Positions 30,394-37,436 of a stretch of DNA of 43,088 bases are shown in pieces. The translations under genes and the position numbers were made by a program. The notes under the pieces were generated by a model. That model did not search any database, was not told the origin of the DNA, and was given only the letters and a program-made list of their open reading frames with translations. The stretch comes from a virus: IMG/VR virus record IMGVR_UViG_3300036852_000198, positions 1-43,088 of that record, one strand, 5' to 3'. The stretch's first letter is position 1, and each line of letters opens with the position of its first letter.

Positions 30394-31446
30394 TCAGTCG
30401 AGACCCAGCTCCAGCTGCAACGGGCCCTTCGAGAAGACGCGCTCGAACTTCCTCCGGAAGTCGTTCATGTCGTCGCACAGCTTCATGATGGTGATGACCT
30501 GCTGGATCTGGTCGTGTAGCCGCTGCTTGCCGTACTTTTCGAGCCACTGATGATGGTTCCGGCGGTGACGCGGGTTCGGGTTGAGCTCGCGTAGCGTGTT
30601 GCCGACGTCCTGGTCGATCGCGTCGTACACGAACATCATCACGTACTTCCCCCATCTCAGCGGTCGGTGCTGGGGTGAGTAGTGGACGCCCTCGAGGCGG
30701 GCGAGCTCATACCAGAACTCGTCGGGGAACACCTTGGCCCACTCCTGTATGTCCTCGGCGATGAAGGCCTGGAGCTTGAGCTGCAGCGCGTTGCGCTCGC
30801 GCACCTTCTGGTAGCCAGTGGCCTCATCGATGAGGGCGATGATCCCGACCTTGGCGCACGCGCGGGTGATGATCTCGGCCATCCTGGCCATGTGCTGCTG
30901 GTTGCTCTTGAGCAGCTTCTGGTCTCGTGCCTGGAGGTAGAGATCGCAGATCTCGATCAGTAGCTCGGCCTGGTACCCGGCGCCGTTCCTCGGGTTTCCC
31001 GGCACGACGAACGGGATCACGCGCTCGTCGAGGGACCCGTGCTGATAGAGGGGCAGGTTTACGAGGTATCGGGACAGATCGCCGCTGTCTCGTCCCCCGG
31101 TGAGGGCACGAACGACTTCGCGCTGGCTCAGAACGCGGTTGCCATCGCTCAGGACATGGACTTCGAATTCGACATCGTCGATGTCGATCGTGCCCTTGAA
31201 CATCGAGTGCGGCAGGTCGCCGGACGGCTTGTCAGCTGGGACCTCGTCGGGCTCGTCGGGCTCGATCGTCTCGGCGGGGATCTTGCCTGCCTTGATCCAT
31301 CGCTGGCGAGCAGCCTGCCGGGCGATCGTTCGCCTCTCCTCTGGCGACAGGACGCTTGCACGCGCCCGGCCTCCCTTGCTCGGGTCCGCCAACAGCGGCG
31401 GGCGTGCGCCGCTACGGGTCTTCGGGGAATCAGGCTTGGCCACATG
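30394..31446 (-). CDS. P63C-domain protein
   Basis: The product is 350 residues. An N-terminal basic/KGGRARA segment and SPEERRTIARQAARQRWIKAG precede a region (about 80-170) with VLSDGNRVLSQREVVRALTGGRDSG and ELLIEICDLYLQARD. The P63C domain (about 190-300) includes LIDEATGYQKVRERNALQLKLQAFIAED and WAKVFPDEFWYELARLEG. P63C proteins occur in phages and mobile elements; some carry antirepressor-like N-termini, but their biochemical role is unsettled. GTG 31446 has GGGAGG at good spacing. It is driven by its own promoter with two palindromic operators, and by third-position base use it is slightly lower in G/C than the late genes. Confidence 0.85.
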   Translation of the reverse strand, partial: HVAKPDSPKTRSGARPPLLADPSKGGRARASVLSPEERRTIARQAARQRWIKAGKIPAETIEPDEPDEVPADKPSGDLPHSMFKGTIDIDDVEFEVHVLSDGNRVLSQREVVRALTGGRDSGDLSRYLVNLPLYQHGSLDERVIPFVVPGNPRNGAGYQAELLIEICDLYLQARDQKLLKSNQQHMARMAEIITRACAKVGIIALIDEATGYQKVRERNALQLKLQAFIAEDIQEWAKVFPDEFWYELARLEGVHYSPQHRPLRWGKYVMMFVYDAIDQDVGNTLRELNPNPRHRRNHHQWLEKYGKQRLHDQIQQVITIMKLCDDMNDFRRKFERVFSKGPLQLELGLD

Positions 31447-31466
31447 GCCTCCCAGCTCGTCGATTC

Positions 31467-31507
31467 TGCTTGCTCGGCAAGCATACCTGTGCTTGCTCGG
31501 CAAGCAA
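31467..31507 (-). promoter_or_regulatory. P63C promoter with two identical 17-bp palindromic operators
   Basis: TGCTTGCTCGGCAAGCA occurs at 31467-31483 and again at 31490-31506, 23 bp apart, about two helical turns. Each is itself a 7-bp inverted repeat around TCG. On the minus strand TTGCTT (31507-31502), a 16-base spacer and TATGCT (31485-31480) form a promoter whose two boxes lie in the two operators. A dimeric repressor bound to both would shut the gene tightly. The cognate regulator is not identified. Confidence 0.75.
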
Positions 31508-31602
31508 GGACCGGCGATGTCACGCCGCCGTCGTAGATCCCAGCATCCACACGGCGCCCCTCGGTCACCGCCTCCGGCCGAGGGGCGCCGTCGCGCCCGG
31601 GC

Positions 31603-32046: not shown

Positions 32047-32336
32047 TATGGCCTACCACCCGCGCCGACAGGCCACCCGGTCGCCCGGAACACGCCGTCC
32101 TCGCATTCGCCGAGGATCACTGTCTGACGTGGCGTCATGGCCCGGGATGGCCGGGGCGTCAGCATGACGGGGGTCGGGTCGGGGAACAGCCTGCGCTCGA
32201 GTAGCGCCCAGCCGGCGATCACAGCGGCGCACAGGGCTGGCCCGACGACGAACGCTGCCGCCCACGGGCCGAGGATCATCCGCAGCGCCCACACGGCCCC
32301 CAGGGCCAGGGCCAGCACGACGACGGCCCGGCGCAT
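32046..32336 (-). CDS. Small membrane protein of the transfer-like operon (96 aa)
   Basis: ATG 32336 shares one base with the stop of the DUF2637 gene. Two hydrophobic helices (VVVLALALGAVWALRMILGPW and AFVVGPALCAAVIAGWALLE) are followed by a cytoplasmic-type tail with basic stretches and TPRQTVILGECEDGVFRATGWPVG. In actinobacterial conjugative elements small Spd-type membrane proteins accompany TraB. This one could be such a partner, though no family is recognised. Confidence 0.65.
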   Translation of the reverse strand: MRRAVVVLALALGAVWALRMILGPWAAAFVVGPALCAAVIAGWALLERRLFPDPTPVMLTPRPSRAMTPRQTVILGECEDGVFRATGWPVGAGGRP

Positions 32337-32944
32337 CAGCGGCTGCCTCGGTCGAGCAGATGCCCGCACAGCACGACGGCGATTGGCGGCAGAGCTGCGA
32401 ACCCCCATCGCACGTACCGCAAGTCGGCCAGCGTCGGGTCGATGGCGAGCACGTTGGCTGTCAGGCTGCCGGCCGCTCCGACGGCAACACCAGCCCACGC
32501 AACCGGGTAGCTGCGCTCGTGCTCCAGGTGGCGTAGAGACACCAGCGCCATGCCGTCGAGCGGCAACGGCATCACCCACGCCCACCAGCCGCCACCGGCA
32601 AGCAGCGCCAGGTGCACGATGTGGCTGTAGGACACCGCCAGCCCGACCGCGAGCACGACCCCGGTGCAGACGACCTGCCACGGGTCCCGTTGCCGACGCG
32701 TTGCCGGCTGCTGTTGCCGGGCCCGTGGCGCCCGGGTTGCCGGTCGATCGACTGCCGGCGACGAGGGCTTGTCGTCCGCCTTGCCGACCTCGTTATTGAG
32801 CTTCTTCGCCCAGTAGCTGCCGGTGCGTTCCGGCACACCCAACTGGCGGCCGAGCTCGGCGCCCGACATCCCTTGCCGCCACAGTTGCCGAGCCCGGTCC
32901 CCGGTCGAGCCGTGGCCGTTGCTGGTCACATCGGTCATCGTCAT
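32336..32944 (-). CDS. DUF2637 (SpdB-like) membrane protein with HTH
   Basis: The product is 202 residues from ATG 32944, overlapping the translocase stop as ATGA. Residues 15-50 (GDRARQLWRQGMSGAELGRQLGVPERTGSYWAKKL) look like a helix-turn-helix. The second half matches DUF2637: VVCTGVVLAVGLAVSYSHIVHLALLAGGGWWAWVMPLPLDGMALVS, then two more hydrophobic helices, four in all. DUF2637/Spd proteins are found on actinobacterial conjugative plasmids and integrative elements beside TraB or FtsK-like translocases and help spread of DNA between mycelial compartments. Presence directly after the translocase in a phage is striking. Confidence 0.8.
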   Translation of the reverse strand: MTMTDVTSNGHGSTGDRARQLWRQGMSGAELGRQLGVPERTGSYWAKKLNNEVGKADDKPSSPAVDRPATRAPRARQQQPATRRQRDPWQVVCTGVVLAVGLAVSYSHIVHLALLAGGGWWAWVMPLPLDGMALVSLRHLEHERSYPVAWAGVAVGAAGSLTANVLAIDPTLADLRYVRWGFAALPPIAVVLCGHLLDRGSR

Positions 32945-35226
32945 GAGGTGGCTCCCTGTTGGGCCCGATCGCGCTCGTGTCGGAGGCTGACGTTCTTCTC
33001 GTTCGTGACCGCCTGGAGGTGCTCGCCGCGGGTGCAGAGCTTCGACGTGCACGGCTCTCCCGGACCGATCCGGTGGTCGACCGTCTCACCCTCGGGGATC
33101 GGGCCGACCTGGTCCTCGAAGGCGAACCGGTGCACGGGGACAGCCCGCCCGCCGATCTTGAAGTAGCCGTAGCCGTCCCCGTTGACCGCTCCGGTCCAGA
33201 GCTCGCAGCCGGCCTCGTCCCGGTCGGCGACCCTGGCGTAGAACCTGTCCCGCGGGGACTCGCCGGGTTGTAGCCATCCACCTAGGGGAACCTTCTCTTC
33301 CGACTCATCGTTTTCGTTGTCGTCCACTCGACCGACTCCGTCGGTCTCGTTCCCCTGGTCCACGTAGGTGGACGTCGTGTTGACGTCCTGCTTCGGCCTC
33401 ACGCGGTTCGGCTCCCAGCGCTGCAGGTCACGAGGGTCGTACTCAGGGAATCGCCCGCGCTGGCCGACTGGCTCGGGGAACTCGCCCTTCTTGCGATCGC
33501 GCTGCGCGGCCTTCTTGAGCGCCTCGAAGTTGAGATCGACGACGCCGCGGCCGTTGTCCTTCGACGCTTCCCACAGCGTCACCGCCGGCACACCACCAGG
33601 CAGGAGGTCTGTCCCGCTAGGGGGACGTTCCCGCATCGTTTCCCCAGGTGAGACGTTCTCGCCGCGATGCGGGACAGCCGTCATCGGCTGCATCCCACGG
33701 CGATCGGCCACCCACTGCTGAGCCTCCTCCTCGCTCATCCTGATGACCTGGACCTCGGTGGCGTTGTCACCGACGCACACCTGGACGCGGCCCTTGATCT
33801 TGGACTTGGGGACGAAGTCGGCCGAGGTGAGCATCTTCCACGTCTGCGGGGTGTGCTCGGCGAGGATCCTCACCGAGAAGTTCTCCCGCAGGTCACCGCT
33901 GCCGACGGCGTTGGCGCTCGCACGCTGCGCCACCGCGAGCACGTTGATCTTCACCGCTCGACCCATGTTGAGGATCGCCGTCAGCGCCCGTATGGCGGGG
34001 CTCGTAGCTGGGTCCCCGGGGCCCCGGATGTCGGTCCAGTGGTCGCGCAGGAGCCCGGCGGTCGTGGACAGCTCCTCCAGGATCAGCACGATCCGCCCGA
34101 AATCGGGGCCCTCGTCGTTGATGCCAACGTGGTCCCACGCGCGGTTGCGGCGGTCGCCCTCGGCGGCGAGCTCGATCAGCATCCGGTGGATCTCACCGAT
34201 GTCCCGCGCGTAGCGGACCCCCGGCAGGTCCCGGAGCCAGCGGAGCGAGTGCCGCTTGTAGTCGGCCACCCACGGTTCGGCTCCGTGCCACATCAGCTGC
34301 GCGGCAACCAGCGTCAGCATCGTCGACTTGCCGCCACCCGTGCCCGCCGACATCAGCACGTGCGGGGACTCGCGGTCCAGGTTCACCTTGTAAGGCCGGT
34401 CACCACGGGTGACCCCGAGCACGAACGTCGACGGCGTCGACTCGCCCTCAACGAGCTTTTGCATCTCGTCGTCCTCCTCGTCATTGAAGGGGGCGACCTC
34501 GCGGATCGGGTCCTTCGGCCAGAACCGGACGTAGTGGTGCCGGCCCTTCATCTCCCAGCGATGGGTCACGTCGCCGCTCAGCTCGAGCTTGGCCCGGATG
34601 ATCTCCTCCACCGCTTCCTTGTTCGCGTTCCGGGGCGCGAACGTCGGCGAGCACCCGACGACCACCCCGTCCCCGCCACGCTCGAGATCGCGGCGGACGG
34701 TGATGTACCGCCACGCCCGGACGCTCATCGCCCGCTCCAGCTCCTTGCCGTCACCGGACGACTTCCCCCATCCCGCGGCCAAGCACACCGCTAGGTGCAG
34801 CGGATAGACCCAACGGAGGTAGTGGGCGACCTTGACCGCCACACACGCGACCACCACAGCGAACGCGGCGAGCCCGAACGTGGTCCCCAGCCCCCAGGCC
34901 GCGAGCGTCGTGACGCCCGTGCCGTTGGGTGCGCCCGAGTCGAGGTACACGACGACGACCAGGCCCGCGGTGCTCGCGGTGCGGACCGCGGCAAGCCCGG
35001 CACGGCGCGACAGCCGATGGGAGCCTTCGTAGCGGGGGGAGCGGCCGGACTCGAGGTGACCGCCGGTGAACCAATGCCAGAGCCACCAGGTGAGATGGCT
35101 GTCCTGCCGCGGGTTGCGGTGCTGGCCCGAGAACGTGACCGCTGCCGCCGCGGCCAGGATAAGGCCCGTGATCGACCAGCCGATCAGCTGCGCCAACCCG
35201 AGCTCGGTCCACGAGGTCAGGTCCAC
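32941..35226 (-). CDS. FtsK/TraB-type DNA translocase fused to a C-terminal HNH nuclease
   Basis: The product is 761 residues. The N-terminus has membrane helices (about 11-31, 85-96, 105-130 and 133-150) separated by a basic loop. An FtsK/SpoIIIE motor follows: PHVLMSAGTGGGKSTML (Walker A, 295-301), WVADYKRHSLRW, and RIVLILEELS (Walker B, 378-387), then NVLAVAQRASANAVGSGDLRENF and the arginine-rich region. A proline/charged linker (530-650) leads to an HNH_3-type domain (about 655-750): YARVADRDEAGCELWTGAV, HRFAFEDQVGPIPEGETVDH (His 699, His 718) and HLQAVTNEKN (His 736, Asn). A hexameric double-strand DNA pump with its own nuclease is expected. The motor resembles TraB of actinobacterial transfer elements. 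Confidence 0.9.
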   Translation of the reverse strand: MDLTSWTELGLAQLIGWSITGLILAAAAAVTFSGQHRNPRQDSHLTWWLWHWFTGGHLESGRSPRYEGSHRLSRRAGLAAVRTASTAGLVVVVYLDSGAPNGTGVTTLAAWGLGTTFGLAAFAVVVACVAVKVAHYLRWVYPLHLAVCLAAGWGKSSGDGKELERAMSVRAWRYITVRRDLERGGDGVVVGCSPTFAPRNANKEAVEEIIRAKLELSGDVTHRWEMKGRHHYVRFWPKDPIREVAPFNDEEDDEMQKLVEGESTPSTFVLGVTRGDRPYKVNLDRESPHVLMSAGTGGGKSTMLTLVAAQLMWHGAEPWVADYKRHSLRWLRDLPGVRYARDIGEIHRMLIELAAEGDRRNRAWDHVGINDEGPDFGRIVLILEELSTTAGLLRDHWTDIRGPGDPATSPAIRALTAILNMGRAVKINVLAVAQRASANAVGSGDLRENFSVRILAEHTPQTWKMLTSADFVPKSKIKGRVQVCVGDNATEVQVIRMSEEEAQQWVADRRGMQPMTAVPHRGENVSPGETMRERPPSGTDLLPGGVPAVTLWEASKDNGRGVVDLNFEALKKAAQRDRKKGEFPEPVGQRGRFPEYDPRDLQRWEPNRVRPKQDVNTTSTYVDQGNETDGVGRVDDNENDESEEKVPLGGWLQPGESPRDRFYARVADRDEAGCELWTGAVNGDGYGYFKIGGRAVPVHRFAFEDQVGPIPEGETVDHRIGPGEPCTSKLCTRGEHLQAVTNEKNVSLRHERDRAQQGATS

Positions 35227-35229
35227 GGC

Positions 35230-35547
35230 TCAGGCCTTCTTCAGCCCGTAGCCGGCGGCGGCGAGTCCGGCGCCCAAGACGATCAGCAGGGCGCCGGCGC
35301 TTCGGGCCACCGTGAACGCCAGGATCTCGGTGACCGCCGCCGTGCCGTACAGAGCGGCGGCGGCCTTCCGGCGATCCCGCAGCATCCACAGGGACCGCTT
35401 GGCGTTGAACCACGCCCGAGCCGGCCGCAGTTTCGTCCCGAACGACGGACCGGGACCACCCCCCTTCCGCGTGCTCCTGGTGTGCGCCGAGCGGTAGTAG
35501 GTCTTCCCGTTGCGGGTGACCTTGTGCGTGCGGACGCGGGTCGCCAT
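35230..35547 (-). CDS. Small basic membrane protein at the head of the transfer-like operon (105 aa)
   Basis: GGAGGA precedes ATG 35547. The N-terminal 55 residues are strongly basic (RVRTHKVTRNGKTYYRSAHTRSTRKGG, then KRSLWMLRDRRKAAA). Two hydrophobic helices follow (ALYGTAAVTEILAFTVARS and AGALLIVLGAGLAAAGYGL). The charge would suit DNA or anionic-membrane contact next to the translocase. It resembles Spd-type accessory proteins in size and layout, but no family is named. It is first in a five- or six-gene minus-strand operon reaching 30394. Confidence 0.7.
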   Translation of the reverse strand: MATRVRTHKVTRNGKTYYRSAHTRSTRKGGGPGPSFGTKLRPARAWFNAKRSLWMLRDRRKAAAALYGTAAVTEILAFTVARSAGALLIVLGAGLAAAGYGLKKA

Positions 35548-35633: not shown

Positions 35634-35849
35634 ATGGGACGGCTGGTCGACCTCGACGACATCACCGACGCCGCCGGGGTAGCCGAGATCATCGGCCTGT
35701 CGCGGGGCAGCAACGTGAGCGTCTACCGCAACCGCTACCCCGACTTCCCCGAGCCCGTCGTCGACCTCGGCACCGGCCGCTGCCTCCTCTGGCTCCGCTC
35801 CGACATCCAGACATGGAAGCGGGCCCGAGGGGGCGAGCCGAAGGGCTGA
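35634..35849 (+). CDS. AlpA/excisionase-like DNA-binding protein (71 aa)
   Basis: The winged helix-turn-helix of the AlpA/MerR-type excisionase group is visible: AAGVAEIIGLSRGSNVSVYRNRYPDFPEPVVDLGTGRCLLWLRSDIQTWKRAR, with the recognition helix around SRGSNVSVYRNR and the wing DLGTGRCLLW. Such proteins act as recombination directionality factors or transcription switches. The gene lies 62 bases upstream of the small CxxC gene and just before the integrase operon. ATG 35634 has no clear ribosome site. Confidence 0.8.
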   Translation: MGRLVDLDDITDAAGVAEIIGLSRGSNVSVYRNRYPDFPEPVVDLGTGRCLLWLRSDIQTWKRARGGEPKG

Positions 35850-35861
35850 CGTTCCCTTCAT

Positions 35862-35910
35862 GACTGAATGAAGTCATTCGGTCGGACAGGGAGCGTGATA
35901 GCGTCCGGGC
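35862..35910 (+). promoter_or_regulatory. Integrase-operon promoter with 22-bp palindrome
   Basis: GACTGAATGA (35862-35871) and TCATTCGGTC (35874-35883) form a near-perfect inverted repeat with a 2-base spacer, covering the expected -35 area. TAGCGT at 35899-35904 is a -10 box placed 6 bases before GTG 35911, again a leaderless layout. A regulator bound to the palindrome (for example the adjacent AlpA-like protein) could block integrase expression. Confidence 0.6.
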
Positions 35911-36039
35911 GTGCCAGACCGAGTGTTCGCCCTCGCGCTGCTCTGCGGGGGCTGCCACCGCCTCATGCCGATCATCGGTCCCGAGGCCGCCGACGCCGGC
36001 CGCGCGTACGTGTTCGTCACCTGGCGGCCATCACCATGA
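35911..36039 (+). CDS. Leaderless 42-residue CxxC protein upstream of the integrase
   Basis: GTG 35911 lies 6 bases after TAGCGT and the TGA at 36037 overlaps the integrase ATG as ATGA, so translation of the two is coupled. The peptide has a CGGC knuckle followed by HRLMPIIGPEAADAGRAYVF and ends TWRPSP. It is not a known family. It could be an integrase regulator or only a translational leader. The exact junction and the promoter spacing are strong support for its being translated. Confidence 0.6.
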   Translation: MPDRVFALALLCGGCHRLMPIIGPEAADAGRAYVFVTWRPSP

Positions 36040-37436
36040 GAGCCGGCATCTACGCACGCATCTCCCTCGACCGTGACGGCGACGAGCTCGGCGTCACCCG
36101 GCAGGAGAAGGACTGCCGACGACTCGCCACCGACCGCGGGTGGCGAGTCGTCGACGTCTACGTCGACAACGACCTCAGCGCCTCCAAGCGGGACATCGCC
36201 CGCCCCGCCTACGAGCGGATGCTCACCGACATCGCCGGCGGCCGCATCGACGCCGTGATCGTCTGGGATCTCGATCGCCTCACGCGGCAGCCACGGCAGC
36301 TCGAGGAGTTCGTCGACCTGTGCGACGAGCACGGGATCACCACCCTGGCGACGGTCAGCGGTGACGTCGACCTCGGATCGGGAGACGGGCTGCTGGTCGC
36401 GCGCATCAAGGGCGCAGTCGCTGCCGAGGAGGTGCGCAAGATGAGCAAGCGCATCGCACGGAAGCATGCCGAGCTGGCCGAGCGAGGCCTGCCGGCTGGT
36501 GGGGGACGGCGACCGTACGGGTACATGGCCGACCGGATGACTATCAACGACGTGGAGGCCGAGCACCTGCGGCGGGCCGCTCGAATGATCCTCGACGGCG
36601 CGACGCTGACAGCCGCGTGCGGCACGATCCCTGACATCACCGACATCACGGTGCTGCGCCGGGCGCTCACATCGCCGCGCACCTCCGGGCTGCGGACCTA
36701 CAAGGGCGAGATCGTCGGTGACGCCGCCTGGCCGCCGATCCTCGACCGGGACACGTGGACCGAGGTCCGCTCGACGCTCAGCGGCCGCAGCCGGTTCGTC
36801 CGGCCGTTCCGCAAGCACCTCCTCGGCGGCATCGCCCGCTGCGGCCGGTGCGGCGCGAAGCTGCACGCCCAGGTGTCCAGCCGCCGTGGCCAGCCCGGGC
36901 CCGCCGTCTACGCCTGCCGTACCACGAAGGGCGGGTGCAACTCGCTGTCGATCGTTGCCGACCGGCTCGAGCGGATCGTCGTCGCCGAGGTGGGCGGCTG
37001 GCTCCGTGACCCGAGGCTCGCCAAGGCGGTGACCGCCGCCTTGCACGGTGGCCAGGACGCCGACGACACCGACGCCCTCATGGCGGCCATCAAGGCCGAC
37101 GAGGCCCGGCTCGCCGAGCTGGCAGTCGAGCGCGAGGAGCACGGCCTCGAGCTCGTCGAGTGGAAGGCCATGCGGGAGCCCGTGCTCATCCGGCTCGAGA
37201 ACAACCGTGCGACGCTGGCCGACGCGCGGCAGCGGGCGGCCACCACGTCACCAGTCGCGGAGGCGTCACCGGCCGAACTGGCCGCCATGTGGACCGACGT
37301 CGACCACCCGATGGAGCCCGCCGTGAGACGCGCGCTCATCGCCATGTTCGCCGCCGAGATCATCGTGCTGCCGGCCGGGAAGGGCTGGCGCGCCGGGGCG
37401 GTCGACCGGGTGCGGGTCCGGCCCGTGTGGGCCTAG
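36036..37436 (+). CDS. int: Large serine recombinase (integrase)
   Basis: The product is 466 residues. The resolvase domain starts with IYARISLDRDGDELGV (catalytic Ser 10) and includes GRIDAVIVWDLDRLTRQPRQLE. The recombinase domain follows (PAGGGRRPYGY, then TTAACG...LTSPRTSGLRTYKGEIVG), then a zinc ribbon (GGIARCGRCGAKL ... GGC) and a coiled coil (about 350-400, AAIKADEARLAELAVEREEHGLELVEWKAMREPVLIRLENN). It should integrate the phage at attB and, with a directionality factor, excise it. I choose ATG 36036 over an upstream frame start at 35868 because of the ATGA overlap. The stop TAG at 37434 is interlocked with the TAG of the minus-strand gene. Confidence 0.96.
   Translation: MRAGIYARISLDRDGDELGVTRQEKDCRRLATDRGWRVVDVYVDNDLSASKRDIARPAYERMLTDIAGGRIDAVIVWDLDRLTRQPRQLEEFVDLCDEHGITTLATVSGDVDLGSGDGLLVARIKGAVAAEEVRKMSKRIARKHAELAERGLPAGGGRRPYGYMADRMTINDVEAEHLRRAARMILDGATLTAACGTIPDITDITVLRRALTSPRTSGLRTYKGEIVGDAAWPPILDRDTWTEVRSTLSGRSRFVRPFRKHLLGGIARCGRCGAKLHAQVSSRRGQPGPAVYACRTTKGGCNSLSIVADRLERIVVAEVGGWLRDPRLAKAVTAALHGGQDADDTDALMAAIKADEARLAELAVEREEHGLELVEWKAMREPVLIRLENNRATLADARQRAATTSPVAEASPAELAAMWTDVDHPMEPAVRRALIAMFAAEIIVLPAGKGWRAGAVDRVRVRPVWA

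Follow-up and report, generated by a model that had tools for sequence, protein, structure and literature searches.

Gene organization of the locus

The window, that is the whole stretch of DNA analysed (IMG/VR record IMGVR_UViG_3300036852_000198, 43,088 nt), carries terminase, portal, capsid and tape measure genes together with serine integrase, Gam-like, RadB-like and WhiB genes, and the nearest match of its portal is the portal of Streptomyces phage Dagobah (48.5% across 45% of the length). These genes support a phage setting, in a virus of actinobacteria, for the motor-HNH gene studied here. The following features were recognized at the locus, residue numbers being those of the fusion protein.

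32336..32944, minus strand: DUF2637 membrane and HTH protein (PF10935, E=5e-6, above cut-off); its ATG overlaps the TGA of the fusion gene (ATGA)
32941..35226, minus strand: gene of the motor-HNH fusion (761 aa), starting with GTG at 35226 and ending with TGA at 32941-32943 (Pfam, PHROGs)
32962..33261, minus strand: HNH_3 endonuclease domain (residues 656-755) with His699, Asp717-His718, Cys726, Cys731 and His736 (Pfam, PHROGs, alignment)
33277..33396, minus strand: acidic linker, predicted disordered (residues 611-650), with an in-frame GTG634 and GGAG 8 nt upstream of it
33403..33576, minus strand: winged-helix DNA-reader-like domain (residues 551-608), conserved in 51/53 full-length motors, predicted helix-helix-strand-strand-helix with pLDDT ~80-93, weak excisionase/MerR matches
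33697..34452, minus strand: FtsK/TcpA-type motor domain (residues ~259-510), from PF01580, Foldseek matches to TcpA/FtsK and residues invariant in A1, A2 and A5
34069..34095, minus strand: Walker B RIVLILEEL (residues 378-386), E384 and E385 invariant
34324..34344, minus strand: Walker A GTGGGKS (residues 295-301), G297, G299, K300 and S301 invariant
34777..35214, minus strand: N-terminal membrane helices (residues ~5-150), from hydropathy peaks and predicted long helices, residues 1-70 being of low model confidence
35230..35547, minus strand: small basic/membrane protein, upstream in the operon, its stop 3 nt ahead of the motor start
35634..35849, plus strand: AlpA/excisionase-like HTH protein, divergent, beside the serine integrase, with a winged-helix profile match
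35868..37436, plus strand: serine integrase (Pfam, PHROGs)

The 761-residue chain of the original prediction was borne out as a single frame of 761 codons running on the minus strand from 35226 to 32941, while the plus strand of the same interval contains stops. Third-position GC is matched between the motor (0.90) and the HNH part (0.89), the linker standing at 0.75, which fits a single coding frame. PHROGs recovers both parts from the one protein, as HNH endonuclease phrog_826 (E=1e-22) and FtsK/SpoIIIE phrog_1358 (E=9e-10). Judged from its sequence, the fusion is real.

Elsewhere in the window, an insert suspected in the methyltransferase gene was dropped, the sole match being to a C5-methylase and the gap being empty of matches. 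Two close copies of the palindrome GCTTGCTCGGCAAGC, a possible operator, lie at 31465-31510 upstream of a P63C-domain gene (30394-31503, minus strand).

Membrane region, motor and winged-helix reader

The predicted membrane helices and FtsK/TraB-type motor with its Walker A and B motifs were confirmed. On residues 259-371 the FtsK_SpoIIIE profile PF01580 scored 21.2 bits by hmmscan, slightly below the cut-off of 24, and it reached 24.2 bits in the genome profile search. By predicted fold the motor is close to TcpA (6o1w, E=2.6e-18) and to the motor domains of FtsK (6t8b, E=1.1e-14), and the sequence match in the PDB is likewise TcpA of plasmid pCW3 (E=7e-7). This conjugation coupling protein of Clostridium perfringens is the closest solved relative of the window motor in both fold and sequence, although it shares only about 18% identity, belongs to another host group, is part of a type IV-like apparatus and was solved as a construct without HNH.

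The nuclease had been predicted to occupy the position of the DNA reader that ends known TraB and FtsK proteins. This was rejected, since a winged helix is intact at residues ~551-608 and the HNH is an extra domain appended behind it. The module was detected in 51 of the 53 non-redundant full-length motors, the window included, and therefore the reader domain is retained rather than swapped out; in the remaining two motors the same pattern is visible by eye. It is common to the relatives as LREA..ALR.ARxxDxxFPxPxGKRG..LYrxxDLxxWaRNR, the predicted block having a pLDDT mostly of 75-91, and the full-length relatives align along the entire motor and end at or just past the equivalent of window residue ~612. 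Profile matches are weak but coherent (lambda excisionase, E=0.03; MerR-type CarH, E=0.065), and the predicted fold matches RdfS excisionase and MerR regulators, the best being the excisionase (E=0.19, probability 0.75). Residues ~551-608 are consequently modelled, from these weak matches, as a putative Xis/MerR-like winged helix of DNA-reader type.

The 71-aa AlpA/excisionase-like protein encoded divergently from the motor is itself matched by the winged-helix profile of the motor (E=0.0035), and the reader and this phage protein may have a common origin.

The HNH tail and the operon junction

The C-terminal HNH_3 domain, predicted at about residues 655-750, was found by PF13392 on residues 697-746 (E=1.3e-6, 28.4 bits against a cut-off of 24.8) and extends more widely, over about 655-755, by PHROGs. 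In an alignment with eight free-standing phage HNH proteins it keeps 16 of 16 invariant columns, including the three histidines originally noted (His699, His718 and His736) as well as Asp717, Cys726 and Cys731, and it is probably catalytically able. Its relatives are free-standing phage genes of about 34-44% identity, and it also matches the PADLOC 'homing endonuclease' profile. The structure model is unreliable in the HNH part, with pLDDT mostly below 50, and that part was left out of the analysis.

Free-standing HNH_3 proteins of the phrog_826 kind from actinophages (Raleigh gp43, Merry, DoctorDiddles gp43) align over the entire domain with the invariant residues kept, and the 99-aa protein of Microbacterium phage Merry is essentially the window HNH domain by itself. 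They differ in being separate genes, whereas the window HNH is fused, and the middle Asn of their C-x-N-P is Arg in the window. Free-standing HNH genes of mycobacteriophages form a mobile class that is inserted precisely between genes (PMC3706429).

Among 146 motor ORFs of any length and 53 full-length non-redundant motors, the window alone has a tail longer than 39 residues or an HNH behind the reader, and a widespread fusion was rejected accordingly. The second-longest tail among the full-length relatives, also acidic, is of 39 residues (L036). In the plasmids no place matched 80% of the combined reader-plus-HNH stretch, and no allele pair with and without the HNH insertion was found at the DNA level. 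A match of phage Samy over residues 542-757 is, judged by its coordinates, apparently an alignment overrunning an HNH gene into its neighbour.

Viral contig L094 has a terminase 61% identical to that of the window, and there the DUF2637 gene starts with an ATG that shares an ATGA with the TGA of the motor itself. In the window an ATGA of this kind links the DUF2637 start to the stop of the HNH instead. This difference points to an in-frame addition of HNH DNA to the 3' end of the motor gene, and such an addition, with the coupling to DUF2637 kept, is the simplest history of the junction. DUF2637 genes are also found near plasmid motors, in pRL2 and pPR2. Streptomyces TraB moves double-stranded DNA without other known type IV parts and works together with Spd proteins of the membrane, among them a DNA-binding one (PMC12857230; PMC4170104). 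By analogy, the DUF2637 protein could be an Spd-like partner of the motor.

Kinship and distribution of the motor

By tblastn the motor was matched in 99 records of plasmids, most of them from Streptomyces and frequently linear, under the names 'pRL2-11', 'Tra' and 'DUF87', with identities of about 31-39% and a coverage of the motor query that reaches 82%. The window motor shares with plasmid Tra (pRL2-11/TraB-like) proteins the intact Walker A and B, the N-terminal membrane helices, the C-terminal winged helix (by weak fold matches) and a tree position among the plasmid members. In the tree it falls in a plasmid clade (support 100/98) with L004, L017, L018 and L019, apart from two other phage motor groups. 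Its branch length is 2.58 against a median of 0.24; consequently its exact place is unsure, and the long branch could reflect either a changed function or a misplaced branch. Such motors therefore appear to have entered phages on more than one occasion.

When the motor or the HNH served as a single-protein query, scans of viral and genome collections gave no relatives, whereas alignment-based scans succeeded, yielding 35 genome loci and 37 viral loci with the motor. Searching genomes across the class and family (692 look-ups) gave few further motors. A terminase gene is present on 14 of 26 motor-bearing viral contigs, and many of these are therefore phages. Of the terminase relatives of the window, 49 have longer contigs, and the motor is present on just two of these, L094 and, distantly, L127; it is an accessory gene in this group.

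A second well-supported clade of TraB-like motors comprises the viral contigs L012, L144, L146-L151, L153 and L168, several of which carry a terminase gene. Short motors (about 300-400 aa) that have no winged helix occur in Dagobah-like phages (L002 2547-3476, which is Dagobah, and L013, L014, L152, L154, L156, L158-L160, L162 and L163), and that of Dagobah also has no membrane region.

Comparison with known systems

The closest counterparts of the window motor are the pRL2-11/Tra (DUF87) proteins of the Streptomyces linear plasmids pRL2 and pFRL6 and of an S. goshikiensis plasmid, which have the same membrane region, motor and winged-helix C-terminus, show 30-38% identity in the alignment, and are the group in which the window motor nests. 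The DUF2637 neighbour is likewise present in pRL2, although it lies upstream of the motor there and downstream in the window, and the group differs further in being plasmid-borne and having no HNH. Streptomyces TraB (pSVH1, pIJ101) and the FtsK-like proteins of AICEs resemble it in their way of working, as a single translocase of double-stranded DNA with a DNA reader and membrane partners (PMC12857230, PMC3218068). No HNH is known in TraB/AICE proteins, and repeat scans near the window motor gene gave no clear array of clt-like loading repeats and no other loading site.

HerA/FtsK 'capture' systems and HerA-nuclease complexes also couple an FtsK/HerA ring to a nuclease, an exonuclease fusion being among those known from defence (PMC10853773), but they serve in defence and use other nucleases, whereas the window encodes a membrane transfer-type motor in a phage. 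A reading of the window gene as a defence system found no support: the matches were confined to part of a P-loop with mads_8 (residues 267-327) and to the homing endonuclease profile, and the operon neighbours were negative. In the openly licensed literature no FtsK-HNH fusion and no membrane transfer-type motor with an HNH tail was found described. The supposition that this architecture is undescribed in a phage agrees with this, no second example and no common, characterised family of motor-HNH fusions having been found.

Nuclease genes beside other motors

Six viral contigs have, no more than about 2 kb from their TraB-like motor, a small gene of a GIY-YIG-like family, as listed here.

L094 9049-9438, plus strand: GIY-YIG-like gene
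L145 6831-7553, plus strand: GIY-YIG-like gene
L155 3686-4309, minus strand: GIY-YIG-like gene
L161 7195-7722, plus strand: GIY-YIG-like gene
L164 4101-4652, minus strand: GIY-YIG-like gene
L166 7293-7823, plus strand: GIY-YIG-like gene

The invariant residues of the family are Tyr, Tyr-x-Gly, Arg, His, Glu and Asn, which is the GIY-YIG signature, although Pfam detects GIY-YIG weakly, in one member (E=0.054). No such gene was found in the window, nor in any of the motor-less loci compared, which form an imperfect control because most of them are flanks of terminase genes. With these genes beside six phage motors, the pairing of motor and nuclease may be recurrent.

Several members of the family contain hydrophobic stretches. 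A GmrSD-type HNH gene (L008 6276-7034) is also found two genes downstream of a related motor on a plasmid of Pseudonocardia.

Origin and possible working of the fusion

The domains, the intact catalytic residues, the retained reader, the plasmid kinship and the operon junction are read from the sequence, whereas we infer the hexamer, the DNA transfer, the path through the membrane, the cutting and the homing. The explanation held to have a slightly better than even chance is that an actinophage captured a plasmid-type transfer motor for double-stranded DNA and that a mobile HNH was joined to it, pumping being ancestral and cutting possible. The window phage would most likely be a temperate actinophage, with a cassette consisting of a membrane-anchored translocase of the pRL2-11/TraB kind, its own winged-helix reader and a DUF2637 membrane partner, and a mobile phage HNH_3 gene would have been joined in frame between the old stop of the motor and the DUF2637 start. 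The motor would most likely work in the way assumed for its plasmid relatives: a hexamer would be loaded by the winged helix at a site of the phage or prophage DNA and would pump double-stranded DNA through the membrane or septum, so that the element spreads between hyphal compartments or cells. The HNH, tethered by the flexible acidic arm, would at first have been a selfish (homing-type) passenger and perhaps also nicks or cuts the pumped DNA. To our knowledge, there is no case of DNA transfer by a phage-encoded motor of such kind.

The failure to find a clt-like array or other loading site near the gene and the long branch of the motor speak against this explanation, and so do the GIY-YIG-like genes beside six motors in so far as they suggest that a nuclease can be a working partner and not only a passenger. 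The protein might then be a dedicated enzyme whose HNH acts on the DNA being pumped: it could nick the phage DNA or make it linear so that transfer begins, resolve its end, or cut competitors' DNA that enters or passes the membrane motor. This is considered unlikely and is kept alive chiefly by those neighbours, found at six phage motor loci and at 0 motor-less loci, although the latter are mostly terminase-gene flanks; the HNH has all its family-invariant residues and shares frame, codon usage and operon with the motor, the plasmid relative has its GmrSD-type HNH gene two genes downstream, and nuclease-coupled HerA/FtsK motors, an exonuclease fusion included, occur in defence (PMC10853773). 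However, the HNH belongs to a family of free-standing phage genes and has its homing endonuclease match, and the window motor lies outside the GIY-YIG phage clade and so gives no sign of an inherited nuclease partnership. One fusion among 53 full-length motors is more simply read as the capture of a mobile HNH.

A motor serving phage biology other than cell-to-cell transfer, such as superinfection exclusion, plasmid-like prophage segregation or the kind of chromosome handling that can be imagined for the FtsK-like protein of Omega, a phage, appears quite improbable. FtsK-like motors that bear gamma domains of their own do occur in cluster J mycobacteriophages (PMC3706429), and Dagobah-like phages have short soluble versions, but the window motor belongs to the membrane-bound plasmid type, has a DUF2637 gene beside it and is not a host FtsK derivative. 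Very unlikely, though worth a real check given the +1 frame TGA directly after Arg608 and the one known contig, is that there are two genes, either through a single-base assembly error (an extra base in CGCG, codons 608-609), with a motor ending 'NR*' next to a free-standing HNH gene whose start is GTG634, or through production of the HNH mainly from that internal GTG. The TGA falls near the ends of the relatives, GTG634 has its GGAG 8 nt upstream, free-standing HNH_3 genes are common in actinophages, and a second isolate was looked for and not found. Against this, all 761 codons are open, one consensus indel at exactly that spot is unlikely a priori, an off-frame TGA is not rare by chance, and most relatives do not end at precisely Arg608.

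Taken together, the fused HNH is a one-off so far, and the repeated carriage of plasmid/AICE-like transfer motors by actinophages is the more interesting lead. As a natural motor-nuclease protein, the chimera could reveal whether translocation and cutting can be coupled or, alternatively, how a mobile nuclease settles at the end of a gene. More broadly, and as an improbable extension, some temperate actinophages might use a plasmid-style transfer machine for double-stranded DNA to spread virion-free through the mycelium, with a GIY-YIG or fused HNH nuclease processing the pumped DNA. If true, the TraB-like motor, the DUF2637 partner and the nuclease would constitute a second spreading route for phages. 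Phages and conjugative elements are usually seen as separate routes of gene transfer, and a conjugation-type pump for double-stranded DNA in actinophages, together with its reader and membrane partner, makes it testable whether a prophage can spread from cell to cell without virions.
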